Source: Solwaraspora sp. WMMA2056
GTDB taxonomy: Bacteria > Actinomycetota > Actinomycetes > Mycobacteriales > Micromonosporaceae
DNA length: 64,000 bases
Assembly (NCBI RefSeq): GCF_030345095.1
Contig: NZ_CP128360.1
Location: forward strand, 992,001 to 1,056,000
Reading direction: 5' to 3'
Below are positions 3,573 to 34,500 of the stretch, one piece after another; position 1 is the stretch's first letter; the number at the start of each line of letters is the position of its first letter. The position numbers were made by a program, and so were the translations under genes. The notes under the pieces were generated by a model. That model did no database searches and was not told where the DNA came from. It worked only from the letters and a program-made list of their open reading frames with translations.

Positions 3573-4108
3573 TGGCGGTCGACGGTCTCAAGCTCGACGT
3601 CTACGACGCCGACCAAGCGAAGGCGATCCTCGACGACCTGGTCGGCGTCTACATCGAGATCTACGACGAGCCAGCCGACGCGTTCCACGGCGAGGACCGC
3701 TACCGCAGGCAGATCAACGGTCACATGACGCTGCCCGGCTGGAAGCTCGTCACCGGCAGGGTCGGCAACGAACTCGTCGGCTACGCCTACGGCTTTCCGC
3801 TCTCATCGGACCGCTGGTGGACCGGGCTGCTCACGCCCGTACCGGACGGCTTCACCTCAGAGGACGGGCGGCGCACCTTCGCGATCAGCGAGCTCATGGT
3901 CCGTAAGTCCTGGCGGCGACAGGGCGTTGCACGCGCACTGCACGACGAGTTGCTCGGCAACCGGGAAGAGTCGAGAGCCACCCTGCTCGCCGATCCGAAG
4001 AACGCCCCGGCGCAGGCCGCGTACGCCTCCTGGGGCTGGCGCACCGTCGCCCAGCTCCGACCGGGTTGGGAGAACTCCCCCATCTACGACGTCCTCATCC
4101 GCCCGTAG
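3572..4108 (+). CDS. GNAT-family N-acetyltransferase
   Basis: A 178-residue acetyltransferase of the GNAT superfamily, which uses acetyl-CoA to acetylate an amine. The core shows a beta-4 strand at about 105-113 (FAISELMVR) followed by the acetyl-CoA loop WRRQGVARALHDELL at 116-130 (R-x-x-G-V/I-A). The C-terminal part, DPKNAPAQAAYASWGWRTVA, is the usual N-x-x-A-x-x-x-Y-x-x-x-G/W-W motif. The ATG overlaps the stop of the XRE gene by one base, so expression is coupled. The substrate cannot be read from sequence; a toxin-type role with the HTH partner is possible, but there is no RHH/DUF1778 antitoxin. Confidence 0.85.
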   Translation: MAVDGLKLDVYDADQAKAILDDLVGVYIEIYDEPADAFHGEDRYRRQINGHMTLPGWKLVTGRVGNELVGYAYGFPLSSDRWWTGLLTPVPDGFTSEDGRRTFAISELMVRKSWRRQGVARALHDELLGNREESRATLLADPKNAPAQAAYASWGWRTVAQLRPGWENSPIYDVLIRP

Positions 4109-4140
4109 CGCGAGTAGGCCGCCCCACCACGACCGTCTGC

Positions 4141-4401
4141 TCACTCTCGGGCAGAACGCTGCCGACCAAGTGCGATCAGGGTGATCAGCACGGCTGCCGT
4201 GCCGCCGAATACGACGCCGACCCAGCCCGGAAGGTCGGCCAGTCTGCCAACCGCGTACCCCAGGCCGGCACCAGTCAGACCGGACAGCGCGACCGCCGAC
4301 CAGCCCACCGCGTTCAACTGGACCCGACGGACCGGACGTGATGCACGTCGGCGAGCCCTCCACCGCGACGTAGGGCGATACTCGCTGTATCGACGTCGCA
4401 T
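4141..4401 (-). CDS. Small two-helix membrane protein (86 aa)
   Basis: The N-terminus is strongly basic (MRRRYSEYRPTSRWRARRRA), followed by two hydrophobic segments at about 33-52 (AVGWSAVALSGLTGAGLGYA) and 60-79 (PGWVGVVFGGTAAVLITLIA). It is therefore a small inner-membrane hairpin with a basic cytoplasmic tail. The ATG at 4401 has a GAGG site 6 nt upstream; an upstream ATG at 4449 would add 16 residues but lacks a comparable site. It is convergent with the acetyltransferase gene. No family is recognised. Confidence 0.65.
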   Translation of the reverse strand: MRRRYSEYRPTSRWRARRRASRPVRRVQLNAVGWSAVALSGLTGAGLGYAVGRLADLPGWVGVVFGGTAAVLITLIALGRQRSARE

Positions 4402-4588
4402 GAAGACCTCAACAGCGGTGCGTGAGAAGCGGTCATCGGTCTCGCCCATCCTGACATGGCAGTCCAGGGTCGGCGAGGTGAGGCCTACGCACCCTCAAAC
4501 GGACTCGTGAGGTATCTGAGCCTCACCTCGACGAAGACACGTACCGGCTGCGGGTCCAAGTGGCGCTTGAGAGTCGTATGGTTTTCCT

Positions 4589-4792
4589 ATGGTTACCACA
4601 GTCAACCTGCCGGACGATCTGCACGCGAGGCTCAAGCAGATCGCTGAGACTGAGCACCGGTCGGCCAACGCCACCATCGTCGTCGCCGTCGAGGAGTACG
4701 TCGCGAGGCACAGCAAGCGGTCCAAGGTGCGTGGGTTGGCCGCAGATGTGGCCGAGCGCCACCGCGAGCTGCTCGACCGACTGACCCAGTGA
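4589..4792 (+). CDS. CopG/Arc-type ribbon-helix-helix antitoxin
   Basis: A 67-residue protein with a classic ribbon-helix-helix fold: beta strand MVTTVNLPDDLHARLKQIA, then helix ETEHRSANATIVVAVEEYVA. The basic-charged tail (HSKRSKVRGLAADVAERHRE) would bind the toxin. As in other RHH antitoxins it should bind its own promoter and neutralise the Doc-like partner encoded next, whose GTG overlaps its stop (GTGA, 4789-4792). There is no ribosome site just before the ATG, and TTGAGA/TATGGT elements lie at about 4567-4582, so a leaderless or very short-leader transcript is possible. Confidence 0.85.
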   Translation: MVTTVNLPDDLHARLKQIAETEHRSANATIVVAVEEYVARHSKRSKVRGLAADVAERHRELLDRLTQ

Positions 4793-5187
4793 CCGCCTAC
4801 CTCGACGTCGAAGACCTGCTGGAGATCGGCTCGATCGTCTTCGGCACGCCAGCCAAGGTCCGCGACTACGGACTGCTCGCCTCCGCCGCCGCCCGACCGA
4901 GCACGATCGTCTTCGGGCAGGAGGCCTACCCCGACCTCGCAGGAAAAGCAGCCAGCCTGCTGCACTCGATCTGCGGCAACCACGCACTCGTCGACGGCGA
5001 CAAACGCCTGGCGTGGGCCGCCGCACTGGTCTTCATCAACCTCGACACCGGGACGCCGATCCCGGACGTCGACGTCGACCGCGCCGAGGCATTCATGCTC
5101 GCAGTTGCCGACGGCAGCCTGCACGAGGTCGACGCGATCGCAGCGGAGCTGCGACGGCTTGGGGTCCTCGACACACTCAGCTCGTGA
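4789..5187 (+). CDS. Fic/Doc-family toxin
   Basis: A 132-residue Doc-like protein. Doc toxins phosphorylate EF-Tu, whereas Fic relatives transfer AMP. The active-site loop is HALVDGDKRLAWAA at about residues 64-77, matching the Doc motif H-x-x-x-(D/E)-G-N-K-R except that the Asn of GNKR is Asp here. The N-terminal part carries YLDVEDLLEIGSIVFGTPAK and GLLASAAARP, typical of Doc. The GTG start overlaps the antitoxin stop. The 3' end overlaps the convergent 1,355-codon gene by 11 bp. Known for the family: toxin neutralised by a small DNA-binding partner. The Asp substitution makes the biochemical activity uncertain. Confidence 0.85.
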   Translation: MTAYLDVEDLLEIGSIVFGTPAKVRDYGLLASAAARPSTIVFGQEAYPDLAGKAASLLHSICGNHALVDGDKRLAWAAALVFINLDTGTPIPDVDVDRAEAFMLAVADGSLHEVDAIAAELRRLGVLDTLSS

Positions 5188-8100
5188 TCGTGAGCGCCAG
5201 CAGGCCCTGGTCCAGCCCGATCAGTAGCGTGTCGTCGACGGTGCAGCATGCCAACGCCGGATGGAGCACCGGAATCGTGCGTACCGCGCGAGCGGTCGGT
5301 ACGTCCCAGACCCGGACGGTGCGGTCGTGGCTGGTCGAGGCGAGCAGGTCACGCCCACCCACCCGGACCAGACTCAGCCCGGTCACCGGCCCCGTGTGCC
5401 CGGTCAGCCAGTGGATCGGCTGACCCCGCTCGGCGTCCCACAACCGGATCGTGTGGTCCGCGCTGGCCGATGCCAGCGCCGGACGGCCGGCGACCACGAG
5501 CCCGCAGAGTGCGTTCACCGCGTCCTGATGCCCCTGCTGCGACCAGAGCTGCGTGCCGTCGGTGTCCCAGAGCATGATGGTGCCGCTCTTGTCTGCGGAG
5601 GCGAGCAGCTCGCCGGCCGGCCCGGCGACCGTGGCCAGCGTCGTCACCCAGGCCAGGGTCACGTGCCCGAGCAACACCCGGCGCACCTCGCCCGAGTACG
5701 GACGCCACAGCCGGACAGTCTGGTCGTCGCCGGCAGAGGCCACCAACAGCTCCGCGTCGTGCTGCACCGGGCAGACGGCGGCGACGCGCTCGTAGTGGCC
5801 GTTCATCTCCCCCTGCAGTGTCCCGTCCCACGCGTCCCACAGCTTGACGACTCGATCGTCGCCAGCGGTCAGGATGCGCGGCTCCTCCTCGTCGGGTACG
5901 ACACACAGCGCATTGACCGGGCCGTCCGACGCGCGGAACTCGCGCTGTTGGGCACCGGTGACCGCATCCCAGATCCGTACCTGCCCGTCCAATCCGGCGG
6001 ATGCGACCAGCCGGCCCTCGGCGCCCGGCACCGGGCACACCGCAGTCACCGCCCCGATCCGGTCGTGCTCGGCGACCGCCCCCGGCGGTCCGCCGCCCGG
6101 ATCCCACAGTCGCACGGTCCCATCGTCGCCGGCGGTGGCGAGCATCCGGTTGTTCGCCGTCGGCAGCTCGCAGACCGCTCGGATCCAGCTGGCATGCCCG
6201 CGTAAGCTCGGTCGGGGAATCCAGGTCTGCTGCGGGGCGCCGGTCGGCACCTCCCACATCCGGATCAGTCCGTCCTCACCAGTCGAGACCAGCAGGCAGC
6301 CGTCGCTGACATCTACTGTGCACAGATCGGTCAGCGGGCCTCCGGTTCGCAGAACCTGGACGCATGCCCCGGTCACGGGATCCCAGATCCGCACTGTGCC
6401 GTCGTAGCCGGCCGAGGCGAGCAGGGTACGGCCGGGGGTACGCACCGCGTACAGAGTGTTGACCCAGCCGAGGTGACCGGTGAGGACTTCAATCGGCTCC
6501 CCACCGGTCGCTGGGTCCCACAGCCGCACCGTGCCGTCGTAGCCGGTGGAGGCGAGCAACTGTCGGTCCCCGACGGGCACGTGGGTCACCGCCGTCACCC
6601 AACCGGTGTGCCCGCTCAGCACATGGCCTGGTCTGCCCGTGTCCGGATCCCACAACCGCACCGTCCGGTCGTCACCGGCGGAGGCGAGCAGGTCACCGTC
6701 GGGCATTGGGATCGCGCAGATGTTGCGTACCCAGTCGCCGTGGCCACGCAGCTCGTGCCGGCGGTGCCCGGCACGCGGATCCCACAGCCCGATGGTGCCG
6801 TCGTGACTGGCCGTGGCGAGCAGCACCTCACCGGTGGCGAGGCGCACCGCGCAGACGCTGTGGATCGTGTCGTCGTGGCCGGTGAACGCCTGCTCGGCCT
6901 GGTTGGTCAGCGGGTCCCAGAGTCGCACTGTGCCGTCGTCGCCGGCCGAGGCGAGCAGCCGACGCCCGTCGATGACGATCGCCGCGACGTCGTAGACGGC
7001 CTCGGAGTGTCCGTCGAGGATGCTGCGTTCCTGCCGGGGCGGGGTGTGCGCCCAGCCTGCCCGGTACGGGGCGGCCGCCGCCGTGATCCCGTTGTCCAGG
7101 CCGTCGAGCCGGTCGACGACGGAGAACAACGCGGCCCGCTCAGCCGGCGCGGCTGCCACCGCCAGCGGGGTCCGTTGCAGGAGCCGGGCACGGGTGACGG
7201 CGAGTGGCGCCTCGGCCGCGTCCGCCACCGTGAGCAACCGGTCCAGGTGGGCGTGCAGCAGATAGTCGTCGTCGGTGAGCAGGTCGTCGACCGCGCCGGC
7301 GCCGGCCGCGTGCTGCGGCAGCGACCGCAGCAGGTAGTCGAACGCGGTGGCCCATCCGGTAGCTCGCGCGGCGGCGGTCCAGATCGCCAGCAGCCGGGCG
7401 TGGTCGTCACGCCGCGAGGCCTGCGCGTCCCGATCGGCCAGCAGCGCGTCGTTGAGCGCCTGGTGGAACAGCCGGTACACGGGCTGAGCGCCGCCGCCGG
7501 TTTCGACGAGGAAGTTCGCCGCCGAGGTACGCGCGAAATCGGCGAGTTCCGGCTCGGTGACCGCCCCGCCGAGGGCTTCGATCGCGGACTGCCACAACGT
7601 CAGTGGCAGTCCCGGCGTCTCGGCGTACGCCAGGGCGGTCAGCGCCAGCCGGGCCGATGTCCGGCCGGCGGTCGGCAGCCCGGCCAGATAGGTGTCCAGG
7701 GCGTGCGCCACGGTAGCGGTGAACGACACCTCGTCCGGGTCGATCGCGGTGTTGTCGCGCAGTGCGTGAGCGCGGGCGACCAGGCCGGCGACCAGGAAGT
7801 TTCCCTTGGCGAGGGCGGCGATGCGGCGGGCGAGCGGCGCGGCGACGGTCGAATCGGCGTACGGGTTGCCTGGTCGTTCGGCACCGATCAGTTGCAGCGT
7901 CGCCTGGGCGTAGTCGGCCAGGTCGGATTCGGCGAAGTACTCCGGCGCGTCCAGGTCGACGAGTTCCGCGTTGCCGCCGAAGCGGCTGATCAGGTCACCG
8001 TGGTCGTCAGAGCGCCGGGTGCCGATCACGATGCGCAGGCCGCGAGGTCCACAGTCACGGGCCAGGGGCATCAGGACGTCGTCGATGACCATGCGCGCCT

Positions 8101-9244
8101 GCGCCGGGTCGGTAGCCTCGTCGAGTGCGTCGATGACCAGGGTGAACCGGGCCGGCCGGTGGGCCAGCTGATCGCGTACCACAGGCATCAGATCAGCTGG
8201 TACGCCTGGCAGCTCGACGGCGACGGCACGGGCGATCTCGGCGGCGACTTCGAGAGCGGTCTTGCCCTTGACGTGCACCGCGCATGAGACCGCACCGACC
8301 GGAGCTCGGACGGCCACGTCGGTGTCGGCCAGCTCCCGGCTGATCTGCTGGTCGGCGGTGGTGACGATCCGCCCGAGTACGGCTGACTTGCCGACTCCCG
8401 GTGACCCGGTGACGATCAACGGCCGGCTGACCGGTTCGGCGCTGTCGATCCAGTCGACGATGCGGTGCAGGGCGGCGGCCCGGCCGCGGAACCGCGCGCC
8501 GCCCTCGGTGTCGACCGCGACCCCGCGCGCCCTGGGCAGCCAGTGCCGGCCTGCCTCGCCGTCGGTGGCCAGGGCCCATCCCCAGGCGGCGAGGGCGGCG
8601 TCGTCCGCGTCGGCGGCCCGCCAGGCGGACAGAGTCGCCAGCTTCATGTCCGGTAGCTGCTGGTCGGCGTAGTGCAGGGTCACGGCCTGGCCGCCGCCCT
8701 GGGCGTCGGCGGTGACGACGACGCCGACCACCGCCTGGTACTCGGATGACCAGACCGCACCGCCGCTGAACCCTTTGCTCAGCTGGGTGGCCGGCGAGGT
8801 GTGGATCATGACGCGGCCCCACCCACCAGGCTGGCCGACACTACCTTCGGCATGGCAGCCGCCGACCACGTGCGTCGGGAACCCGTACGTCCAGTAAGGA
8901 CTTCCCGCCAGCGGCTTGGCGGGCAGACAACGAAGTCGGGCCGGGGTCACCGATGCCGGTACCGGCTCCACGAGTTCAAGCATGACCAGGTCGACCTTGG
9001 CATCCCGCATTCCGTCGTGCAGGCAGCTGCCGATCCGGCGGCGGTCGAACCAGGTGACCTTCTCGGCCAGTGGAAACGAGATCCAGAGGTCGTCGTGCAG
9101 CTGCCCGTCGTTGCCGAACGCGACATGGTGGCAGGTCAGCACCAGGTTGCTCTCCACAACGACGCCGGTACCGACGGGGGTGTCCTGGTGCTGCCCACGG
9201 TGCAGGGCGACCAGCCAGGAGCAGTCGTCGGGTCCTGCGGTCAC
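5177..9244 (-). CDS. Trypsin-like protease / STAND NTPase / 14-blade WD40 protein
   Basis: A 1,355-residue three-part protein. Residues 1-200 form a trypsin-fold protease with a plausible triad: His40 (LVLTCHHV), Asp85 (AKVDLVMLEL) and Ser160 (GFSGGAVW). It has no signal peptide, so it is cytoplasmic. Residues 270-600 are a STAND/NACHT-type NTPase with Walker A GSPGVGKS at 280-287 and Walker B LVIDALDE at 369-376. From about 770 to the end, 13 WD40 repeats with xTVRLWDPxTG ends plus a closing strand suggest two seven-bladed propellers. This is the sensor-switch-effector layout of bacterial conflict proteins: the propeller senses, the NTPase oligomerises and the protease is the effector. That role is inferred from architecture. 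GTG start; 17 nt downstream of the Trypco1-like gene. Confidence 0.9.
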   Translation of the reverse strand: MTAGPDDCSWLVALHRGQHQDTPVGTGVVVESNLVLTCHHVAFGNDGQLHDDLWISFPLAEKVTWFDRRRIGSCLHDGMRDAKVDLVMLELVEPVPASVTPARLRCLPAKPLAGSPYWTYGFPTHVVGGCHAEGSVGQPGGWGRVMIHTSPATQLSKGFSGGAVWSSEYQAVVGVVVTADAQGGGQAVTLHYADQQLPDMKLATLSAWRAADADDAALAAWGWALATDGEAGRHWLPRARGVAVDTEGGARFRGRAAALHRIVDWIDSAEPVSRPLIVTGSPGVGKSAVLGRIVTTADQQISRELADTDVAVRAPVGAVSCAVHVKGKTALEVAAEIARAVAVELPGVPADLMPVVRDQLAHRPARFTLVIDALDEATDPAQARMVIDDVLMPLARDCGPRGLRIVIGTRRSDDHGDLISRFGGNAELVDLDAPEYFAESDLADYAQATLQLIGAERPGNPYADSTVAAPLARRIAALAKGNFLVAGLVARAHALRDNTAIDPDEVSFTATVAHALDTYLAGLPTAGRTSARLALTALAYAETPGLPLTLWQSAIEALGGAVTEPELADFARTSAANFLVETGGGAQPVYRLFHQALNDALLADRDAQASRRDDHARLLAIWTAAARATGWATAFDYLLRSLPQHAAGAGAVDDLLTDDDYLLHAHLDRLLTVADAAEAPLAVTRARLLQRTPLAVAAAPAERAALFSVVDRLDGLDNGITAAAAPYRAGWAHTPPRQERSILDGHSEAVYDVAAIVIDGRRLLASAGDDGTVRLWDPLTNQAEQAFTGHDDTIHSVCAVRLATGEVLLATASHDGTIGLWDPRAGHRRHELRGHGDWVRNICAIPMPDGDLLASAGDDRTVRLWDPDTGRPGHVLSGHTGWVTAVTHVPVGDRQLLASTGYDGTVRLWDPATGGEPIEVLTGHLGWVNTLYAVRTPGRTLLASAGYDGTVRIWDPVTGACVQVLRTGGPLTDLCTVDVSDGCLLVSTGEDGLIRMWEVPTGAPQQTWIPRPSLRGHASWIRAVCELPTANNRMLATAGDDGTVRLWDPGGGPPGAVAEHDRIGAVTAVCPVPGAEGRLVASAGLDGQVRIWDAVTGAQQREFRASDGPVNALCVVPDEEEPRILTAGDDRVVKLWDAWDGTLQGEMNGHYERVAAVCPVQHDAELLVASAGDDQTVRLWRPYSGEVRRVLLGHVTLAWVTTLATVAGPAGELLASADKSGTIMLWDTDGTQLWSQQGHQDAVNALCGLVVAGRPALASASADHTIRLWDAERGQPIHWLTGHTGPVTGLSLVRVGGRDLLASTSHDRTVRVWDVPTARAVRTIPVLHPALACCTVDDTLLIGLDQGLLALTITS

Positions 9245-9261
9245 CAGCCGATCCGTCCCGG

Positions 9262-9591
9262 TCAGCGCCGCATCGTGGTGCCGGCGTCCGGCGGCCCACC
9301 CGGATACCAGCTGAGGGTGACTTCGAAATTCCCTTCAGCCGCTGCCTTGGCGACCACCCAGTTGGTCGTGCCGGTCGCCTTGATGCCGAACTTCACCTCG
9401 ACGGCATCCGGAGAGACAGCTTTGACCTGGTCCAACAACACGCTGGCGGCGGCGATGGCAGGTGCGGCGGACTCCCGTACCCAGCCAACGACGTCGCCGA
9501 CCCCGGCCGGCTGAAAACCCACCGGCGGATCGATCTCGACCATCGCTACCGTCTTGTCGTCGACCTGGTAGCGGACCACTTCGGACTGCAC
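9262..9591 (-). CDS. Trypco1-like protein (CU044_2847 type), partner of the protease-STAND gene
   Basis: A 109-residue protein with a beta-rich N-terminus (VVRYQVDDKTVAMVEIDPP) and a C-terminal half reading SPDAVEVKFGIKATGTTNWV followed by AKAAAEGNFEVTLSWYPG. This matches the small 'trypsin-co-occurring domain 1' family (CU044_2847 type) encoded next to trypsin-like conflict proteins. I recognise the family from memory of its VEVKFGIK/NWVVAKA pattern and did not search for it. The GTG at 9591 has a GGAGGT site 5 nt upstream. Transcribed first in the two-gene minus-strand unit; likely regulates or partners the protease. Confidence 0.75.
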   Translation of the reverse strand: MQSEVVRYQVDDKTVAMVEIDPPVGFQPAGVGDVVGWVRESAAPAIAAASVLLDQVKAVSPDAVEVKFGIKATGTTNWVVAKAAAEGNFEVTLSWYPGGPPDAGTTMRR

Positions 9592-9967
9592 CGCACACCT
9601 CCGCTGCCCGACAGAAACGGGCATAAGTCCGCAGCCCGCGCTTTGCGGGCCGCCACCCGGGTTGCACCGACCAGCCATGCTGCCTCTCACCGACGAGATT
9701 TGGCAACGGTTCTATTCATGATCACTTTCCGGCCACTGCGAACAGGTGTTTCAGGCGACCTCCTGCCCTGCGACATTGAAGATCCACTCATGGCGGAGTG
9801 TCAGCTATCTGCACCGGCCGGACGGACCTTGCGCCGGTCCGGCGGTATCGGCAGAATCGGCCAGTGCCCAGGCCACCCCCGGCCCGACACCTCATCTTCC
9901 CGGCCACCCCGAGCTATTGATCATCGCCATGTCGATGCGACCGCTCACGCCCCTTGAGGAGCACCGC
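9592..9967. promoter_or_regulatory. Shared divergent region between the two candidate conflict modules
   Basis: 376 bp without a supported gene, lying between the Trypco1/protease unit (minus) and the wHTH/HerA unit (plus). It must carry both promoters. A possible leader frame runs through 9908-9967 but its ATGs lack a ribosome site; the GAGGAG at 9956-9961 serves the ATG at 9968. I see no strong repeats or dyads. Confidence 0.5.
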
Positions 9968-10657
9968 ATGTCGGAGAAGGAACTCACCCTCGTCGAGCGG
10001 TGCGTACTCATCAACCTGATGGTCAAGGCCGCTCCGCTGCAGCAGAGCTACCTCATCAACGTCGCGGGCGTCACCGGGCTCAAGGCGACCCATCGCCGCG
10101 CCCTGGAAGCCCTTGGGCTGATCGAGGTGACGGAGAAGCCGATCACCCTGCACCTGACCGACAGCGGGTGGGAGGCGGCCAAGGCGGAGTTGAGCAAGGA
10201 CGAGCCACCGAAGGGTGCCGGTACCGCCGGTGCGACGCTCTACACGGTGCTCGACTTCGTTCGCCGGCTGATCGACCACTCGGGCGTACGAGCGGACGAC
10301 CTGTTCCGGATGCAGTTCAAGCCCAACGAGATCGCCTCCACCATCGACCCGGCAGAGCCGGTCGCGTCTCCGGCCAGCGGCAGCGAAGCGAGCCAGGTCG
10401 ACGTGGCCACGCGGATCCGGCGGGCGTACCACGAGCTTGTCGACCAGCCCGGCGACTACGTCATGCTGGCCGCGCTGCGGGCCGCGCTCGCCGATCTGCC
10501 GGGCGATGATCTCGACGCCGCGCTGATCAAGCTCAACCAGGACCCCGACGTTGACCTGATCCCGGAATCCAACCAGAAGTCACTCACGCCACAGAACCGT
10601 GCTGCAGCAGTAAGCATCGGCAACCAGGACAAGCACCTCATCGCCATCTCGTCATGA
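9968..10657 (+). CDS. Winged-helix-like protein, partner of the HerA-type ATPase
   Basis: A 229-residue protein. Residues 1-80 look like a winged helix: KELTLVERCVLINLMVKAA, SYLINVAGVTGLKATHRRAL, then LGLIEVTEKPITLHLTDSGW as helix-wing. Residues 85-125 contain a helix (LYTVLDFVRRLIDHSGVRAD) and 150-200 a helical domain (VATRIRRAYHELVDQPGDYV, LRAALADLPGDDLDAALIKL) of the kind that closes with substrate or partner binding. The start is the ATG at 9968 with GAGGAG upstream; in-frame ATGs at 9929 and 9935 lack a site. It overlaps the ATPase gene by 4 bp (ATGA), a sign of obligate co-expression. No named family is recognised. Confidence 0.75.
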   Translation: MSEKELTLVERCVLINLMVKAAPLQQSYLINVAGVTGLKATHRRALEALGLIEVTEKPITLHLTDSGWEAAKAELSKDEPPKGAGTAGATLYTVLDFVRRLIDHSGVRADDLFRMQFKPNEIASTIDPAEPVASPASGSEASQVDVATRIRRAYHELVDQPGDYVMLAALRAALADLPGDDLDAALIKLNQDPDVDLIPESNQKSLTPQNRAAAVSIGNQDKHLIAISS

Positions 10658-13600
10658 TCACGGAACAGGAACGGCGCGCCCTCGCCGCGCTCCGGTTCAA
10701 CTGGGCGCCCACCCCGGACGATGTCTGGAAGCCAGCCCCGTTTCACGTCGACGGGCTGCACCACGAAATCGTCCAGCTGGTGATGGAGAGCTTTGCCGAA
10801 GCCCACCACACGATCGACTCCAGCCCGGTGGGACTGGCGATCCTGGGGCAGCGCGGCACCGGCAAGACGCACCTGCTCGGCGAGGTGCGCCACCGCGTGC
10901 AAGGAGCCGGAGGCTTCTTTTTCCTGGTAAGCCTGCTGGAGGCTAGCGCCTTCTGGCGCAGCGCGGCGCTGTCGATGATAGATGGTTTTGCTCGGCCGCT
11001 GCCCGACGGTACGACCCAGGTACGCGGCTTCCTTCTCCGGCTGGCAGACAAGATCAAGGCGCCGAGAGCCGTCCGCCGGGCCATCACCGGCGATAGTGAA
11101 CTCACCCGGCATGCCCTTGACGCCTTCGTCGATCAGATTCGCAAGGCCGACCGTCATATCGGCACTGAGTGCCAGGACACGGCACGGGCGCTGGTCCTGT
11201 TCGGCTCAGACATCGGCACTGCGCAGGATGTCGGCCACGACTTCCTCTGCTCGAACGACGAGGAGGAAGTCGGCGCTCGGACCGACTGGGGTATGCGGCG
11301 CCACCGGCGGGCGCCACAGGAAGTGGTTCGCGACACGTCCCGACTGTTGGCGATGGTTGGTCCGACAGTCGTCGCGGTCGATCAGATCGATCTGCTCGTC
11401 GCGCAGTCGGTCAAGTCGACCAGCCTCGAGACCCGTGGTGAGGTCGACTGGCAGGCTTCGCTGCTCTTGGAGCAGGCGGCAACCGGGTTGATGTCACTAC
11501 GGGAAACAATGCGTCGCTCACTGTCAATTGTCTCCTGCCTGCCGCACACCTGGCAGAGCATCAAGGAGCAGGCCACCGACACCGTGCAGGACCGGTTCCG
11601 GGAGGCGGTGCGGCTCAAGGAGATCCCGTCGCCGGAGATCGGCCGAGAGTTGGTGGAGAAGCGGTTCGGCCTGGTCTTCGACGAGCTGGGCTTCACCCCG
11701 CCGTACCCGACGTGGCCGATTCATCCGTCCGCCTTCACTGAGGTCGTCCAGTTCACGCCGCGCGAACTGCTCCGTCGGATCGACACCCACGTGCGCTCCT
11801 GTCTGGCCGACGGGCAGGTGCGCGAGCTTACCCATCTGCTGCATGCGCGGTCCGGAGACAACGGCCCGGCCAAGAGGTCCGATGCCGTTCCCACACCCGA
11901 TCGGTCCGACAAGTCCGAGGTGCGGGACGACACGCAGCCGGTGCCGGCCGAGTCCGACGAGCTCGCCAAGATCGACATCAGCTACGCCGAGTTGATCGAG
12001 TCAGCCGAGACCGTGAGCGCGGTGCAGCAGTCCAGCGAGGACCTGAGGGTGCCGGCGCTGCTACAGGCCGGGTTGACCGCGTGGATCGCCGCCCAGGGCG
12101 GATCGGCCGATGAGTTCAGCCTCGACCCGCTACCGTTCAGCGGCAAACCGGCCCTGCACGCCCGGTTGCGGCGGACGCTCGACGAGGAGACCGAGGACGA
12201 AGAGCACTGGTCGTTCCGGGCCGTCTGCGCCCCGCACCACATCGCGGCGCTCAACCGGATCCGCAACGCCATGACCACCGCCGGGTTGACCGAAGGGGTC
12301 ACCAAGCGGCGACTCTTCCTGCTCCGCAGCGCGGGCTGGTCCGCCGGTGCACGTACCCGGGAACTGCTCGACGCGTTCACCAGAGCCGGCGGGCGGACGC
12401 TTCCCTTCCCCACTGCGGACATCAGGCGCCTTGCCGCCCTGGAACAGCTGATCCAGCAGTACGGATTGGAACGACTACGGCCTTGGTTCGCCTCCCGGCA
12501 GCCGGCCTCCACCGTCGCTTTCCTGCGCGACGCGCTCGATGGCGGTGCCGACGCCAACAGGGAAAGCCATGCCGACAGTCACGACACGACGGCACCAACC
12601 GAGCCCGATCCGGCCATGCAACCGGTCGGCCCGCCGGTGCGGGCGGTCGGTCGGGCCTCCGTATCGGTGCGGCCGGCGGTTAGCGAGAACTCGTCCACTG
12701 GTCGCGGGGGGCCCGCCGAGAAGCCGGCGACGCTGGCCGGGATCGACCCGCCCCAGTTGACGATCGGGTCCGTCGCCGGCCGGGCGGACCCGGTCAAGAT
12801 GGACTTGGAGTCGATGCGTCGGCATACGGTGATATTCGCTGGCTCGGGATCCGGCAAGACGGTGCTGATCCGCCGGCTTGTCGAGGAGTGCGCGCTGCGG
12901 GGCGTGTCCGCGATCGTGCTTGACCCGAACAACGACCTCGCCCGGCTTGGCGATGCCTGGCCGGAGCCGCCGACCGGCTGGGGTCCGGAGGATCCCGATC
13001 GGGCTGCTGCCTACCTCGCCGGCACCGATGTGGTCGTCTGGACGCCGGGGCGTCGTGCTGGTCGCCCGCTGAGTTTTCAACCGTTGCCGAACTTCGGTGA
13101 CGTGCTCGACGACCCCGACGGGTTCCGCGCCGCCGTCGACTCAGCCGTCGCCACGCTCGCGCCACATGCCCGGGTCGACGGCGGCACCGACAAGGCGAGG
13201 CTGGGGCGAGCCGTGCTGCGCGAGGCACTGATTGGTTACGCCCGCAACGGTGGCAGCGACCTGCAGGCGTTCACCGATCTGTTGAACGACCTACCGGACG
13301 GGGTCAGCCAGCTCGACAGCGCACCGAAGCTGGCAGCAGGCATGGCGCAACTACTCAAGGCAGCGTTGATCGATGATCCGCTGTTCGGCGGTGACGGCAC
13401 TCCCGTCGACCCGGGCACCTTACTCACGCCGCCGCCGGGGCGACACGCCCGCATCTCGGTGATCAGCTTCGTCGGACTGCCACACGACCACCAGCGCCAG
13501 AGCTTCGTCAACCAGTTGCAGCTCGCCCTGTTCACGTGGATCAAGCGAAATCCGGCCGGCGACCGACCACTCGGCGGACTGTTCGTGATGGATGAGGCCC

Positions 13601-13980
13601 AGACCCTCGCTCCATCCGGCTCGGTCACAGCCTGCACCCAGAGCACCCTCGCGTTGACGTCGCAGGCCCGTAAGTACGGGCTCGGTCTGGTCTTCGCGAC
13701 CCAGGCCCCGAAGGCGCTGCACAATCAGATCCCCGGCAACGCTGCCACCCAGTTCTTCGGCCTGTTGACCGCACCGGTGCAGATCGAGGCGGCCCGAGAC
13801 GTCGCGCGGGCCAAGGGTGCCGACATCCCTGACGTCGGCAAGATGGCTACCGGACAGTTCTACGCAGCGGTGGAGGGCGCGCGGTTCGTCAAGCTACAGG
13901 CACCGATGTGCCTGAGCCACCACCCACGCAGCCCGTTGACGACCGAGGAGGTCGTGCAACGGGCCGCTGTCCACCGGTGA
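10654..13980 (+). CDS. Double P-loop protein: AAA-type NTPase fused to HerA/FtsK-like ATPase
   Basis: A 1,108-residue protein with two nucleotide-binding modules. The N-terminal AAA-type domain has Walker A GQRGTGKT at 65-72 and Walker B VVAVDQIDLL at 239-248. A Pro/Ser-rich linker follows at about 395-425, then a helical domain (about 450-620) and a second linker. The C-terminal module (about 690-1108) is HerA-like: GSGSGKT at 730-736, AIVLDPNNDLARLGD just after it, Walker B LFVMDEAQTL with Asp980-Glu981, and a sensor-type stretch TSQARKYGLGLVFATQAP. HerA-family ATPases pump DNA or assemble as hexamers and recur in defence systems with nucleases or SIR2 proteins. No nuclease is seen here. 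The fusion and its winged-helix partner are not a system I can name. Confidence 0.85.
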   Translation: MITEQERRALAALRFNWAPTPDDVWKPAPFHVDGLHHEIVQLVMESFAEAHHTIDSSPVGLAILGQRGTGKTHLLGEVRHRVQGAGGFFFLVSLLEASAFWRSAALSMIDGFARPLPDGTTQVRGFLLRLADKIKAPRAVRRAITGDSELTRHALDAFVDQIRKADRHIGTECQDTARALVLFGSDIGTAQDVGHDFLCSNDEEEVGARTDWGMRRHRRAPQEVVRDTSRLLAMVGPTVVAVDQIDLLVAQSVKSTSLETRGEVDWQASLLLEQAATGLMSLRETMRRSLSIVSCLPHTWQSIKEQATDTVQDRFREAVRLKEIPSPEIGRELVEKRFGLVFDELGFTPPYPTWPIHPSAFTEVVQFTPRELLRRIDTHVRSCLADGQVRELTHLLHARSGDNGPAKRSDAVPTPDRSDKSEVRDDTQPVPAESDELAKIDISYAELIESAETVSAVQQSSEDLRVPALLQAGLTAWIAAQGGSADEFSLDPLPFSGKPALHARLRRTLDEETEDEEHWSFRAVCAPHHIAALNRIRNAMTTAGLTEGVTKRRLFLLRSAGWSAGARTRELLDAFTRAGGRTLPFPTADIRRLAALEQLIQQYGLERLRPWFASRQPASTVAFLRDALDGGADANRESHADSHDTTAPTEPDPAMQPVGPPVRAVGRASVSVRPAVSENSSTGRGGPAEKPATLAGIDPPQLTIGSVAGRADPVKMDLESMRRHTVIFAGSGSGKTVLIRRLVEECALRGVSAIVLDPNNDLARLGDAWPEPPTGWGPEDPDRAAAYLAGTDVVVWTPGRRAGRPLSFQPLPNFGDVLDDPDGFRAAVDSAVATLAPHARVDGGTDKARLGRAVLREALIGYARNGGSDLQAFTDLLNDLPDGVSQLDSAPKLAAGMAQLLKAALIDDPLFGGDGTPVDPGTLLTPPPGRHARISVISFVGLPHDHQRQSFVNQLQLALFTWIKRNPAGDRPLGGLFVMDEAQTLAPSGSVTACTQSTLALTSQARKYGLGLVFATQAPKALHNQIPGNAATQFFGLLTAPVQIEAARDVARAKGADIPDVGKMATGQFYAAVEGARFVKLQAPMCLSHHPRSPLTTEEVVQRAAVHR

Positions 13981-14069
13981 CCATATCGGTGACGATGACA
14001 TTGGTTCGCGGCGCGAGACAGGTCACGCCAATCAGCGAATTGGCAGCCACCGACGGACTCACGGCGGAG

Positions 14070-14098
14070 GTAGCCCCGGCCATATCGGCCGAGGCTAC
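14070..14098. terminator. Bidirectional hairpin between convergent genes
   Basis: GTAGCC...GGCTAC arms with an inner CGGCC/GGCCG stem around CATAT form a hairpin between the ATPase gene and the convergent protease gene. A direct repeat, GGACGGGACGGATCAGG then GACGGGACGGATCAGG, follows at about 14103-14136. Confidence 0.6.
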
Positions 14099-14132
14099 CT
14101 TTGGACGGGACGGATCAGGTGGACGGGACGGA

Positions 14133-15140
14133 TCAGGCCGGAGAGATGCCTTCGGCGAAGTCGTACAGGCTCTTGATGTCGTTGTCGAAGTACGGGCCGT
14201 CGAATTGACCGTTGCCCGGGTTGTCACCGTGGCTGACCACGCTGTTGATGTACCCGTAGCCGGTCGTGTCGTTGTATTCCTGCAGCCAGGGTCCGCCGCT
14301 GGAACCGTACGTCATGTTGCAGTACATCCGGATCTGCTGGCCGCCGGGGTTCCACGTGGTGCCCTGGCAGTAGTACTGACTCTCGCCGCCACCCAGGTTG
14401 GACGGGTAACCGAGAGCGGTGACATAGACGCTGTAGCTGTAGTTCCAGCGCAGCCCGTGGCCGCCGACGGTGTCGACGACCTTGGCACCGTAGATGCCGC
14501 CGTTGTTCATGATGGCGATACCCATGTCCTCGGCGTAGCTGCCGCTGTTGATCCAGGCGGTACGGGTGTTGAGGCTGGACGCCACGAAGGTGCCGAACGG
14601 GCGCGAGCCGTTGCGGTAGCGCGGGACGAACTGCCAGTTGCTGTACCACTGTCCGCCGGGGCCCTGGTGGACGCAGTGCCCGGCGGTCATGACCAGCCGG
14701 CGCTTGCCGCTGGCGACCGTGCTGGCCGAGCAGGAGGCGGTGCCACCCGTGGGGGTGGTGAAGTAGACCTTGCCGACGGCGAGCGACTCGTTGACCATCA
14801 GTCCGACGTCACCGCGGCTGCCGAGGCTCGGAGCCAGCGGCGCCACCGCGCCCGCCGGCCCGTTGGGCTTGGCGTCGGCGATCGACGCTCCGGCGCCCTT
14901 CGCCGACCCGGCGAAGGTCATGTCGACCGCGGACGCCATCCGCTCCTCGGTCCAGAATTCGCTGACCTCCTTCGCGATCTTCGCGTTGGTGATCGCCCGT
15001 CCATCGAGAGTACGGGCGACGGTGGATGTGTTGCCGTTCACGTCGATCGGTGCGGGCTTCGCCTGAGCGGCGGGTGCGCCGGTCAGAACGAGGGTGAGCG
15101 ACAGTCCGACCAATGCGGACCAACGCAGGGTTGATTTCAA
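14133..15140 (-). CDS. Secreted trypsin-like serine protease
   Basis: A 335-residue extracellular endopeptidase. The Sec signal peptide is clear: MKSTLRWSALVGLSLTLVLT, then GAPAAQA as the cleavage region. A propeptide of roughly 80 residues follows. The chymotrypsin-fold domain carries His in LVMTAGHCVHQ, Asp in SYAEDMGIAIM, and Ser in TYGSSGGPWLQ, a complete triad. Four or more cysteines (CSASTV, GHC, YYCQG, MYCNM) indicate disulfides, as in actinobacterial exported proteases. The start ATG (15140) has AGGACCTCC-type pairing just upstream. It is a single gene facing the ATPase across a bidirectional terminator. Its role is probably extracellular proteolysis; the substrate cannot be told. Confidence 0.92.
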   Translation of the reverse strand: MKSTLRWSALVGLSLTLVLTGAPAAQAKPAPIDVNGNTSTVARTLDGRAITNAKIAKEVSEFWTEERMASAVDMTFAGSAKGAGASIADAKPNGPAGAVAPLAPSLGSRGDVGLMVNESLAVGKVYFTTPTGGTASCSASTVASGKRRLVMTAGHCVHQGPGGQWYSNWQFVPRYRNGSRPFGTFVASSLNTRTAWINSGSYAEDMGIAIMNNGGIYGAKVVDTVGGHGLRWNYSYSVYVTALGYPSNLGGGESQYYCQGTTWNPGGQQIRMYCNMTYGSSGGPWLQEYNDTTGYGYINSVVSHGDNPGNGQFDGPYFDNDIKSLYDFAEGISPA

Positions 15141-15489
15141 CAGGACCTCCCTTGTCCTTGGTGCCCGTCTGGGCCTTCCGCAGCATATTTATATGCCTCC
15201 ATTGATCACAATGCCGAAAACCTTGACGGATCATGGACACATTCAGGGAGAAGCGCTTTCACCAGCGACTACACAATTGTCGATCACCACTCGTTGCCCA
15301 CATTCGAATCGCGCTGACTTGAAGAAGTCAGAACATCGACATGATAAAAGCAGAATCGACAATGCGAATCACGTGAAACGTGATGGATGGCGGCGAGTTG
15401 CGCGCCCTGCGCCTACGTCGTACCGGTTTGGTCTGCGACGCCCCGACGACGGACCCGCCGGCTACGCGTCGACGACCGGGGCCCGCCGG
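15141..15489. other. AT-richer intergenic region upstream of the secreted protease
   Basis: 349 bp without a supported gene, visibly more AT-rich than its surroundings, likely holding the protease promoter. It contains a small hairpin CTGACTT-GAAG-AAGTCAG at about 15315-15332 and a parS-like site (annotated separately). Confidence 0.5.
15366..15379. other. Isolated parS-like site
   Basis: GAATCACGTGAAAC differs from the perfect ParB site GTTTCACGTGAAAC seen near parB at two of 14 positions, both in the left arm. It sits about 35 kb from the parAB locus. It may be a degenerate ParB site or chance. Confidence 0.35.
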
Positions 15490-15501
15490 CTACGCGTCGA
15501 C
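15454..15501. repeat. 20-bp direct repeat at the VOC gene stop codon
   Basis: CCCGCCGGCTACGCGTCGAC occurs at 15454-15473 and again at 15482-15501. The second copy contains the stop codon and last codons of the minus-strand VOC gene, so the end of the gene was duplicated downstream. Confidence 0.6.
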
Positions 15502-15990
15502 CGGGCCGAGGGTGACCGTGCCGTCCGCCGCGACCTGCCAGCCCGGGTTGTACGCGACCTCCCAGACCGTGCCGTTCGGGTCGGCGAAGTGCCCGTGGTA
15601 GCCACCGAACGCCGCCTGCCGACCGGTCTTGCGGATCGTCCCACCGGCCGCCACCGCCTCGGTCAGCACCTGGTCGACCTCCGCCGGCGAGGCGACGTTG
15701 TACGCCAGGGTGAAGCCGGCCGGCGTCACCGCTGCCTCGACCCCCGCAGACGGCGCATCGACCGTCGGAGACGGCACAACCGGGACGTCGGCCGGCACCG
15801 TCGGATCCATGTCGCGGCCGAACGCCGTCGCCTCGAAGAAGCCGAGGATCATGCCGGGACCGATCTGAAAGAAGATGATCTCCCCTGGTACGTCGAGCGT
15901 CGGCCGCCAGCCCAGACCGTCCCGGTAGAAGCGACGGGCCGCGGCGAGATCGGCAGTGGCCACCGTGATGAAGTGCACCTGCTGCCGCAC
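15490..15990 (-). CDS. VOC-family (glyoxalase/bleomycin-resistance fold) protein
   Basis: A 166-residue protein of the vicinal-oxygen-chelate superfamily. It begins HFITVATADLAAARRFYRDGLGW, the standard first beta-alpha-beta unit. The second half contains EVDQVLTEAVAAGGTIRK and YHGHFADPNGTVWEVAYNP, the closing VOC motif in which the Glu of WEV is a usual metal ligand. The N-terminal His (VHFITV) and HGHF are possible ligands too. Such proteins are often annotated as glyoxalases, but substrates vary and cannot be assigned here. It lies 28 nt downstream of the 134-aa acidic protein gene on the same strand. Confidence 0.85.
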   Translation of the reverse strand: MRQQVHFITVATADLAAARRFYRDGLGWRPTLDVPGEIIFFQIGPGMILGFFEATAFGRDMDPTVPADVPVVPSPTVDAPSAGVEAAVTPAGFTLAYNVASPAEVDQVLTEAVAAGGTIRKTGRQAAFGGYHGHFADPNGTVWEVAYNPGWQVAADGTVTLGPVDA

Positions 15991-16018
15991 GCCGCGGCCT
16001 CCTTTCGCCTGCGCTTGC

Positions 16019-31518: not shown

Positions 31519-34500
31519 CTAGTCCTGTTCGTCAGGCTCGTCGGCATTGCGAGCAATCGCCACGATGGTCACGCCGTCCGGGAGGTCCATGAGCTTGACC
31601 CCCATTGTGTTCCGATCCCGCGTACGTCGTACAGGCTTCACCGGAGTCCGGATCACGCCACCGTTGCTGGTGATCGCGAAGAGCTCGTCATCCGGACTGA
31701 TCACGACCGCACCGACCAGACCACCGCGGCGTTCGGTGATCTTGGCAGTCAGCACGCCCTTGCCTCCCCGGCCCTGGACCGGATACTCCTCGATCGGGGT
31801 GCGCTTCGCGTACCCGCCGTTGGTGGCCACCAAAACATCCAGGTCCATACCTTCACGGACGACCGCCATTGCCAGCAACTCGTCCGTGTCGGTGAACCGC
31901 ATCCCGATCACCCCGGAGGTGGCCCGGCCCATCGGCCGCAGCGCCTCGTCGGTGGCGTTGAACCGGATCGCCTGGGCGTTCTTGGAGACCAGCAGCAGAT
32001 CGTCGGTCGCCGAGGCCAGGGCGGCGCCGACCAGCTCGTCGGCATCACGCAGGTTGATGCCGATGATCCCGCCGGACCGGTTGGAGTCGAACTCCTCCAG
32101 CTTGGTCTTCTTGACCAGACCGTTACGGGTGGCCAGCACCAGGTAGGGCGCCACCTGGTAGTTCGGGATCTGGATGACCTGGGCGATGTGCTCGTCCGGC
32201 TGGAAGGCCAGCAGGTTGGCGACGTGCTGGCCGCGGGCGGTACGCGACGCCTCCGGCAGCTCGTACGCCTTGGCCCGGTACACCCGGCCCTTGTTGGTGA
32301 AGAACAGCATCCAGTCATGGGTGGACGCAACGAAGAAGTGGCTGACGATGTCGTCCTGGCGTAGCGTCGCCCCGCTGACGCCCTTGCCGCCCCGACGCTG
32401 TGAGCGGTAGAGGTCGACCTTGGTCCGCTTGGCGTACCCGGTCCGGGTGATGGTGACCACCACGTCCTCGCGGGCGATCAGGTCCTCCATCGAGACCTCG
32501 CCGTCGAACGGCACGATCTGCGTCCGTCGCTCGTCGCCCCACTTGGCGACGATCTCGCCCAACTCCTCGGAGACGATCTTCCGCTGCCGCTCCGGCTTGG
32601 CCAGGATGTCCTTGAGGTCGGTGATCTCCAGCTCGATCTTGGCGAGCTCGTCGATGATCTTCTGGCGCTCCAGCGCGGCGAGCCGGCGCAGCTGCATGTC
32701 CAGGATCGCGGTGGCCTGGATCTCGTCGACCTCGAGCAACCGCATCAGACCCTGGCGGGAGTCCTCGACCGTCGGCGAGCGCCGGATCAGTGCGATCACC
32801 TCGTCGAGCATGTCCAGCGCCTTGACCAGACCCCGCAGGATGTGCGCCCGCTCCTCGGCCTTACGCAGCCGGTACGCGGTCCGCCGGCGGATCACGTCGA
32901 TCTGGTGCTCGACGTAGTAGCGGATGAACTGCGCCAGGTTCAGCGTGCGCGGCACCCCGTCGACGAGCGCCAGCATGTTGGCGCCGAACGTCTCCTGCAG
33001 CTGGGTGTGCTTGTAGAGGTTGTTGAGCACCACCTTGGCGACGGCGTCCCGCTTGAGCACCAGCACCAGCCGCATACCGGTACGCCCGGACGACTCGTCG
33101 CGGATGTCGGCGATCCCGCCGATCTTGCCTTCCTTGATCAGTTCGGCGACCCGCTCGGCGAGGTTGTCCGGGTTGACCTGGTACGGCAGCTCGGTGACGA
33201 CGAGCGCGGTCCGCCCCTTCTTGTCCTCCTCGACCTCGACCACGGCCCGCATCCGGATCGAGCCACGACCGGTCCGGTATGCGTCCTGGATCGGCGTGGT
33301 GCCGACGATCAGCCCGGCGGTCGGGAAGTCCGGACCCTTGACGATCCCGAGCAGTGCTTCGAGCGTGTCGGCCTCGTCGACCTCCGGGTTCTCCAGACAC
33401 CACTGCACCGCCGCCGCGATCTCCCGCAGGTTGTGCGGCGGGATCTTGGTGGCCATACCGACCGCGATGCCCTCGGAGCCGTTGATCAGCAGGTTGGGGA
33501 TCCGGGCCGGCAGGATCACCGGCTCCTTGGCCCGCCCGTCGTAGTTGTCCTGGAAGTCGACGGTGTCCTCGTCGATGTCCCGCAGCATCTCCATCGCCAG
33601 CGGGTCGAGCTTGCACTCGGTGTTGTGGCTGACGAATCCGTCGGTGACGAAGGAATGGTCGTCGGTGTCCACCCGGAGGCTGTAGACCGGCTGCACGCCC
33701 GCGTCGGCGACCTCGGCGACCTCGGCGTAGTAGAAACGGCCGTCGACCAGCGGCTCGACGACGTCGCGCACCTCGCGTTCGGTGATCCGGGCGAGAATCT
33801 CGGACCGGTCACGCTCCCACCGTTCGATCCGGTCGACGTTGTGCCGGCGCAGCCAGTCACGCTCCGTCCAGCGGGTCGCGCCATGCGCGCGGATGAAATC
33901 GGCCAGGTAGGGAACGTGGTCGCTGGACATCGCACGACTGGTACGCGGCACGGCGCGCAGCTCGCCGCGCAGCTTGTCCTGCTTGCGGCCGAGGAACCCG
34001 ATCCGTTGGGCGAAGATGCGGGCGTCTCGCCGGTTGGTCACCACCAGCTTGATCTCGCCGTTGCGGTACTCGCACTGCCGGCTGACCACACCGAATTCGA
34101 GCAGCAGTTGCTGGACTTCGTCGGCCAGGCGGTGGCTGCGGGTCGAGTAGCTGATCGCAATGGTGCCGCGTGGCAGCAACGACGACGACCCGTCGCCGGT
34201 GAACAACGCCTGCAGGAACGCGCGCTTGACCGCCGCCGGCCCGCGCCAGATCAGCTCGGGGACGAACTTGCCGGCGCTGCGGACGTCGACCAGATCGGCG
34301 AGCAGACTCTGCCGCAACGCGGCGACATCCTGCACGTCCAACTCGTACAGGGTGCTGCCGGAGGCGATGATTCGCTGGCTGACGTACCGTCGGCCGCCAA
34401 CCGCGACGTCGTAGGCGGCGACCACCCGGGCGAAGAATTCCGGGTCGACGTTGTTGAATCCGGCACGGTTGGTCGAGAACCAGCCTTCGCTGACGAACGC

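Follow-up and report, generated by a model that had tools for sequence, protein, structure and literature searches.

SIR2-HerA (Nezha) and HerA-DUF4297 are two-gene antiphage systems, MADS is an eight-gene cluster that includes a methyltransferase, and BREX brings together BrxC or PglY, PglZ and a methyltransferase; to our knowledge, the effector of HerA defence systems is either a nuclease or an NADase. A further class, predicted under the name 'HerA/FtsK capture', comprises an Orc/CDC6 ATPase, an inactive restriction endonuclease (REase), an active REase, HerA and a winged helix-turn-helix (wHTH), combined in single or multiple polypeptides (PMC10853773), and HerA-centred systems related to BREX have also been described (PMC12839542). 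Here we analyze a 64,000-nucleotide stretch of the Solwaraspora sp. WMMA2056 genome (contig NZ_CP128360.1, positions 992,001–1,056,000; hereafter the window), in which two linked genes, P1 and P2, resemble the central part of an anti-invader system of soil actinobacteria. Our best reading of the pair is as an actinobacterial variant of HerA/FtsK capture with interchangeable effectors, here with a protease/STAND protein in place of the nuclease; the surprise of the locus is this protease-type effector at the nuclease's position, not a missing nuclease.

The reading frames bore out the coordinates and the 4-bp overlap of the two genes that had been proposed when the window was read from its letters alone (the sequence-only reading), and GAGGAG precedes P1; the two genes are presumably strictly co-expressed. 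They and the modules of P2 lie as follows.

9968–10657, + strand: P1, 229 amino acids; two winged-helix-like units with helices and a low-confidence linker between them; the constant partner of P2
10654–13980, + strand: P2, 1108 amino acids; double P-loop ATPase
10762–11811, + strand: P2 residues 37–386, AAA+ module, probably of Orc/Cdc6 type (from the model, motif conservation and Foldseek)
12028–12462, + strand: P2 residues 459–603, alpha/beta domain, tentatively a possible inactive REase (from the helix–strand order of the model)
12751–13977, + strand: P2 residues 700–1108, HerA/FtsK-type translocase, with Walker A and B motifs, R1006 upstream of the last core strand and sensor Q1017

The four motifs picked out by the sequence-only reading were all located in P2: GQRGTGKT at residues 65–72, VVAVDQIDLL at 239–248, GSGSGKT at 730–736 and MDEAQ at 979–983. 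The C-terminal part of the protein matched the Pfam family DUF87/HerA (E = 9.9e-11), and the N-terminal part matched AAA_16 at E = 9.1e-06, under the curated cut-off of that family, with other AAA families matching weakly. Degeneracy of a P-loop across the family had been named as an outcome to look for, and none was found: K71, D243, R314, R370, K735, T736, D980, E981, R1006 and Q1017 were invariant in all 99 aligned P2 homologues (T72 was replaced by Ser in three of them), so neither P-loop is degenerate, and both are intact throughout.

AlphaFold2 models of both proteins, another of the suggested checks, were computed from 55-row alignments (mean predicted local distance difference test, pLDDT, of 83.7 for P2 and 89.0 for P1). 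In P2 they delineate the AAA+ module (residues ~37–386), helices at 432–480, an alpha/beta domain extending to ~603, a disordered segment at 643–698 and the HerA module from 700 to the end; in P1 they place two winged-helix-like units. When the whole P2 model was searched with Foldseek, 26 PDB chains matched at E <= 0.001, including HerA-NurA, archaeal and D. radiodurans HerA, SIR2/HerA, DUF4297-HerA and VirB4, with HerA-NurA 9x1m (E = 5.3e-07) among the best. Weaker matches within the 50 best were to TnsC (7ufi, E = 0.004), ORC2 (1w5s, E = 0.010) and other ORC/Cdc6 chains (to E = 0.063). The output lists no aligned ranges, and we place these weaker matches on the N-terminal half because the sequence matches to HerA relatives fall on the C-terminal one; the AAA+ module is therefore probably of the Orc/Cdc6 type. 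Residues 459–603 have the helix and strand order of a PD-(D/E)xK (REase)-like domain without its acidic catalytic columns and may, tentatively, be an inactive REase. They matched no Pfam family, and hhalign gave no match to the DUF559 domain of the nuclease found in relatives; homology between the two was rejected on these results. P1 likewise matched no Pfam family (best E = 0.099) and no PADLOC model, and its Foldseek matches, of the wHTH, MarR, PadR and AspA kinds, were weak (best E = 0.023, none at E <= 0.001). Together, Pfam, the models and Foldseek support the earlier picture of a defence-like fusion of AAA and HerA modules with a winged-helix-like partner.

We then compared the surroundings of P2 across the 80 best-scoring of 225 confirmed relatives in GTDB contigs, which are not a random sample and underlie all counts out of 80 given here. 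At all 80 loci a same-strand P1 homologue immediately preceded P2 (tblastn around the loci), with −15 to 246 bases between the tblastn matches; the gaps of 243–246 bases come from L034 and L038, in which the P2 match starts late. The module upstream of P1 was a DUF559 nuclease at 56 loci, a trypsin-NTPase-WD40 protein at 12 and a TIR protein with a KGGVGR-ATPase at four; at the remaining eight none was recognised. No locus carried two upstream modules near P2, and the nuclease and the protease pair were never found together; in the nuclease loci L070 and L056, weak TIR or KGGVGR matches lie downstream of P2, at 3 and 8.5 kb. Pfam confirmed DUF559 in each of the eight nuclease proteins scanned, the nuclease residues D278, E289 and D291 were invariant in 28/28 aligned sequences, and both KGGVGR proteins scanned bore a CATASP domain. 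Several nuclease genes had been missed by gene calling and were recovered by tblastn. Among 101 related genomes, 30 of 33 nuclease-family genes were within 1 kb of a P2 match, with P1 fitting between, and the other three were on contigs without a P2 match. The neighbours of 77 loci with a usable gene call (76 plus the window) were also clustered, and the 45 largest clusters were viewed by eye. A locus of Dactylosporangium vinaceum (L094) has at 7229–9421 an HTH-NTPase-like gene (730 amino acids, by eye) that overlaps P1 by 8 bases and is perhaps a further partner module.

These counts split the earlier statement that no nuclease is visible: it holds for the window, in whose first 30 kb no nuclease-family match was found, and fails for the family. 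The accompanying idea, that a DNA-binding partner takes the nuclease's place, does not survive, because P1 is present at every locus, the 56 nuclease-bearing ones included, and so is no substitute for the nuclease.

The place of the nuclease gene of other clades is occupied in the window by a trypsin-NTPase-WD40 gene, which lies outside the coordinates of the P1–P2 pair and is accompanied by a small second gene.

5177–9244, − strand: trypsin-like protease (residues 1–218) fused to a NACHT/STAND-like NTPase and WD40 repeats; 1355 amino acids, 13 matched WD40 repeats
9262–9591, − strand: Trypco1 (trypsin-co-occurring domain 1); 109 amino acids, start assigned by homology

The protease matched Trypsin_2 (E = 3.6e-10) and NACHT (E = 2.2e-06), its triad H40/D85/S160 is intact, as are its Walker A and DALDE motifs, and the Trypco1 domain match had E = 1.7e-16. 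On a P2 tree of 99 of 130 P2 sequences longer than 850 amino acids (quick LG+G4, midpoint root, several long branches; clipped or duplicate loci, L001–L030, and the near-copies L116 and L129 omitted), all 20 trypsin rows formed a single clade that contains the window (SH-aLRT support 100) and in which no nuclease gene was found. This clade is nested in a set of 59 rows that otherwise holds 37 nuclease rows and two unassigned ones, and the four TIR/KGGVGR loci form a clade of their own; the upstream-module label changed six times over the tree, versus 33.4 times in shuffles. The simplest history, on a midpoint root with long branches, is a nuclease-bearing ancestor in which the protease pair took over a single time; which way the swap went depends on the root. 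A protease-type protein at the nuclease's place suggests a switch of weapon. Distances between P2 proteins correlate with those between the proteases (Spearman 0.76, 0/2000 permutations, 19 loci with L041 and L116 left out), a correlation that shared species history alone could also yield.

Like HerA/FtsK capture, the family has a probable Orc/CDC6-type AAA+ module, a HerA/FtsK translocase, a winged-helix protein and, in most of the relatives examined, a separate nuclease (PMC10853773). The sensor Gln and upstream Arg finger of that class correspond to Q1017 and R1006, present in 99/99 homologues; its wHTH protein corresponds to P1, by its model, its weak wHTH matches and its presence at 80/80 loci; and its separate active REase has no counterpart in the window and a DUF559 counterpart in 56/80 relatives. 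Unlike the class as PMC10853773 presents it, P2 fuses AAA+ with HerA and shows no wHTH after the REase-like domain, the family's nuclease is of the DUF559 kind, and the window's clade has a trypsin-STAND-WD40 protein and Trypco1 at the nuclease position; neither 'trypsin' nor 'DUF559' occurs in the main text of that paper. The sequence-only reading had matched the pair to no named system, which was nearly right: HerA/FtsK capture, a predicted Orc/CDC6-coupled class, is the closest published one we found. Searches of the open-licence literature, a scope that leaves out subscription papers and preprints, turned up no description of a nuclease-for-protease exchange.

Other systems share fewer features. 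SIR2-HerA (Nezha) and HerA-DUF4297 also join a HerA-type translocase to an effector and are among the best structure matches of P2, which differs from them in its additional AAA+ half and REase-like domain, its other effector and its constant winged-helix protein. The HerA half of P2 matched the PADLOC mad8 model (E = 1.5e-17), as well as HerA models, and so resembles Mad8 of MADS; unlike MADS, the six window proteins scanned matched no other mad model and the block at 4535–14136 encodes no methyltransferase. BREX and a conjugation locus had been singled out as settings that would speak against a new system. No BREX or conjugation family, and no set of BrxC/PglY, PglZ and methyltransferase, appeared among the scanned window proteins, the neighbours of homologues having been viewed by eye and not scanned. 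The BREX-related capture systems combine HerA with an ORC/Cdc6-like ATPase and wHTH, as is probably the case here; unlike those in PMC12839542, the block lacks PglZ, DUF6079 and DUF4007, for which the homologues' neighbours were outside the scan. Trypco1 is defined as a neighbour of trypsin-like peptidases, and in the same source MoxR-vWA systems have mutually exclusive effector pairings (PMC7159879). The window's Trypco1 gene adjoins a trypsin-like protease with an NTPase, as in the Trypco1/trypsin conflict systems, MoxR-vWA ternary systems (VMAP) among them; unlike VMAP as given there, the block at 4535–14136 has neither MoxR nor vWA (all six genes scanned), and the partner is P1–P2 (PMC7159879). 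The theme of modular effectors is the same in PMC10907252 and PMC8195603.

That block is a cassette whose remaining two genes lie at its left end.

4535–14136, no strand: cassette of six genes (RHH-Fic pair, protease, Trypco1, P1, P2), missing from two genomes of the same genus, decayed in one and present in three
4589–5187, + strand: ribbon-helix-helix (RHH) antitoxin-like gene (4589–4792) and Fic/Doc gene (4789–5187), part of the block in the window's genus alone

Genomes of the genus gain and lose the block, or exchange it, as a whole. In one genome without it (G004), homology on the left reaches window position 4536 and resumes at 14137, with a different gene between. In the other (G003), a right flank that shares 91.7% identity with the window along 15.4 kb stops at 14137; homology resumes at 4534, where it consists of no more than a 64-base palindrome and, farther to the left, short collinear patches, a sparseness indicating that the left side of this genome has lost more. 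The decayed case (G001) retains small cassette fragments, including the 3′ end of P2. Where the cassette is present, it is 93.1% (G006), 91.2% (G005) and 90.5% (G002) identical to the window's, in G006 and G005 over a stretch that includes the gene to the right, and the flanks of these three genomes are mostly 72–82% identical with short exceptions of 88–94%. Fic was found in the four copies of this genus and, decayed to a remnant, in G001; because no Fic gene was found at the other trypsin loci, it is not part of the core. Against the three same-genus copies, the ratio of nonsynonymous to synonymous substitution (dN/dS) was 0.19–0.20 for P2, 0.14–0.16 for the protease gene and 0.30–0.37 for P1. 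The P1–P2 pair is real and conserved and is likely a counter-invader core.

The 64-base palindrome lies at 4471–4534, at the cassette's left end (single-stranded DNA folding z of −4.2). It has nine matches in the genome, itself included and two of them overlapping, and is also found at the G003 and G004 junctions. On the right the cassette is flanked by a secreted-looking trypsin-like protease gene (14133–15140, weak Trypsin_2 match) that is common to genomes carrying the cassette and genomes lacking it.

Upstream of P1, in the divergent intergenic region, a conserved block resembles a promoter.

9829–9857, + strand: promoter-like TTGCGC-N17-CAGAAT, conserved 5′ of P1 in the window's clade

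Blocks of this kind, some near-identical, stood upstream of P1 at 20/21 protease-clade loci, compared with 3/63 upstream of nuclease genes and none in 138,161 background bases (one strand). We considered the block as an operator and set this aside, because a sigma-70-type promoter is the simpler reading. No RNA family reached its gathering score within window positions 4000–16000.

The family is patchily distributed. P2 matches were present in 56/101 related genomes at E <= 0.001 and in 44/101 at E <= 1e-90, the other 12 of the 56 having weak matches to the C-terminal part, and the 80 best relatives in GTDB contigs were, judged by record title, all from actinobacteria. A plasmid of the alphaproteobacterium Methylobacterium aquaticum (L112 8297–13237) carries a P2 homologue of 37.5% identity with DUF559 and P1-like genes upstream. 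General carriage on plasmids was rejected, with three of 72,556 plasmid records matching and the Methylobacterium one the only plausible plasmid; the Nonomuraea record, of 11.8 Mb, and the Tsukamurella record, with ribosomal protein genes aboard, look like mislabelled chromosomes. A phage or viral origin was likewise rejected, with no match in 50,697 phage records and no confirmed relative among 68 pattern matches in viral contigs.

Taking together the architecture of P2, its intact ATPase sites, the linkage of P1 to P2, upstream modules that do not co-occur, the one clade with a swap and the gain and loss of the block, we propose, with a probability of roughly one half (about 0.48), that P1–P2 serves as the core that engages DNA in a counter-invader system of Orc/Cdc6-HerA type, in which a protease pair replaces the nuclease in the window's clade. 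The winged helices of P1 and the AAA+ half of P2 would load the complex onto DNA, along which the HerA half, probably as a hexameric ring, would translocate it. In most of the relatives examined, the motor would deliver the DUF559 nuclease (Vsr-like, PD-(D/E)xK) to invading DNA. Once, in the clade of the window, the divergent pair of Trypco1 and trypsin-STAND-WD40 genes would have taken the place of the nuclease gene, and engagement of foreign DNA would there most likely switch on the protease, presumably with an abortive or cell-death outcome. The link from core to protease could be physical or by signalling. A more specific form, which we hold tentatively, has the Orc/Cdc6-HerA motor sensing or capturing foreign DNA and, rather than cutting it, activating the trypsin-STAND-WD40 protein as an 'apoptosome-like' effector gated by Trypco1, reached through one nuclease-for-protease swap, with TIR/KGGVGR arising separately. 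If true, the family would represent a DNA-translocase sensor with interchangeable cell-death outputs. A family whose separate branches combine one conserved DNA-motor core with different partners (nuclease, TIR/ATPase pair, protease-STAND protein) would give a natural series in which to study how a motor signals to an effector.

Several observations weigh against the proposed core–effector system. The Orc/Cdc6 assignment of the AAA+ module draws on Foldseek matches of E = 0.004 or weaker; the protease pair is divergent and outside the P1–P2 operon; and 7/16 protease-family matches in the 101 relatives were away from P2, the other nine being within 1.6 kb of a P2 match. At 8/80 loci no recognised effector lies nearby, so P1–P2 could work by itself or with a partner in trans. 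At 4/20 scorable loci the triad of the protease is degenerate, and proteolysis cannot be the output there. In a phylum-wide sample P2 was found at E <= 1e-40 in 4/296 genomes, the window's own included. Finally, nine hhalign comparisons revealed no domain shared among P1, nuclease, protease, TIR, KGGVGR and Trypco1; a shared core–effector adaptor was rejected at probabilities under 1% across the alignments of P1 and the effectors, with P2 as a whole outside the comparison.

Much of this evidence also bears on the leading competing explanation, to which we give clearly less than an even chance: that two independent defence modules share an island, P1–P2 sufficing by itself or relying on a nuclease in trans, and the trypsin-STAND-WD40/Trypco1 pair forming a conflict system of its own within the cassette. 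The effectorless loci, the protease homologues away from P2 and the failure to find an adaptor all fit separate modules, as do the promoter-like block that P1 has for itself and the lower synonymous divergence (dS) among same-genus copies of the protease gene (0.10–0.13) than of P2 (0.28–0.44), which implies partly separate exchange. Separate modules do not, however, account readily for the absence of any locus with both nuclease and protease pair (0/80), for the confinement of the protease loci to one clade in the same divergent orientation, or for the coming and going of the entire block as one in the window's genus. It is improbable that P1–P2 is instead an FtsK/TraB-like device for segregation or transfer of a mobile element: a HerA/FtsK-type motor with a winged-helix partner that moves as a cassette could serve that end, and one weak Foldseek match of P1 was to the centromere-binding protein AspA, but what recurs beside the core is a nuclease, a protease-STAND protein or TIR/KGGVGR proteins, inspection by eye (unscanned) showed nothing resembling a relaxase or integrase in the 45 largest neighbour clusters, and phage records gave no match and viral contigs no confirmed relative. 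Least likely of all, and quite doubtful, is that P1 mainly regulates the divergent protease operon and P2 is a DNA-repair translocase, since P1, although it adjoins a conserved divergent intergenic region, accompanies P2 also at 68/80 loci without the protease pair, and the patchy spread (44/101 relatives; 4/296 in the phylum sample) speaks against housekeeping.

Trypco1 is present beside the protease at most, not all, trypsin loci, and its distribution follows the state of the protease. The triad is complete in 16 of 21 protease loci, several of them closely related, and Trypco1 is found in all 16; at L035, L036, L125 and L127 both His and Ser have been lost and a Trypco1 match is absent in all four. 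With L041 unscorable, the broken-triad loci are thus exactly those without Trypco1 (4 of 20 scorable). The upstream space in L035 contains open frames, none of which matched Trypco1. On the P2 tree three of the broken-triad loci group together and L035 groups with loci that keep triad and Trypco1, so at least two parallel losses of the two are likely. A tie between Trypco1 and an active trypsin makes the role of Trypco1 testable.

Some neighbourhoods of the core are single examples and not statistics. A nuclease-type copy in G001 precedes genes that match Cas7g, Cas56g, Cas3g, Cas8g and Cas1g (a type I-G-like operon). A second copy of the core, of the nuclease type, is present in the genome of the window (L111 8391–12935; G000:C1 about 3991400–3995907); it is broken by a stop in the nuclease reading and a P2 split between frames, and the cas-like genes that follow it share the beginnings of those in G001. 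One further locus (L098) has pPIWI-RE genes upstream of the core, and in Tsukamurella tyrosinosolvens (L113 7541–13261) a nuclease-P1-P2 operon and a VapBC pair sit between rplN and rpsQ, within the cluster of ribosomal protein genes. The window itself carries gyrA, gyrB, a RecF/SMC-type gene, dnaN and dnaA, which place the cassette near the presumed replication origin; its gyrA (31519–35322) holds a LAGLIDADG-type, intein-like insertion.

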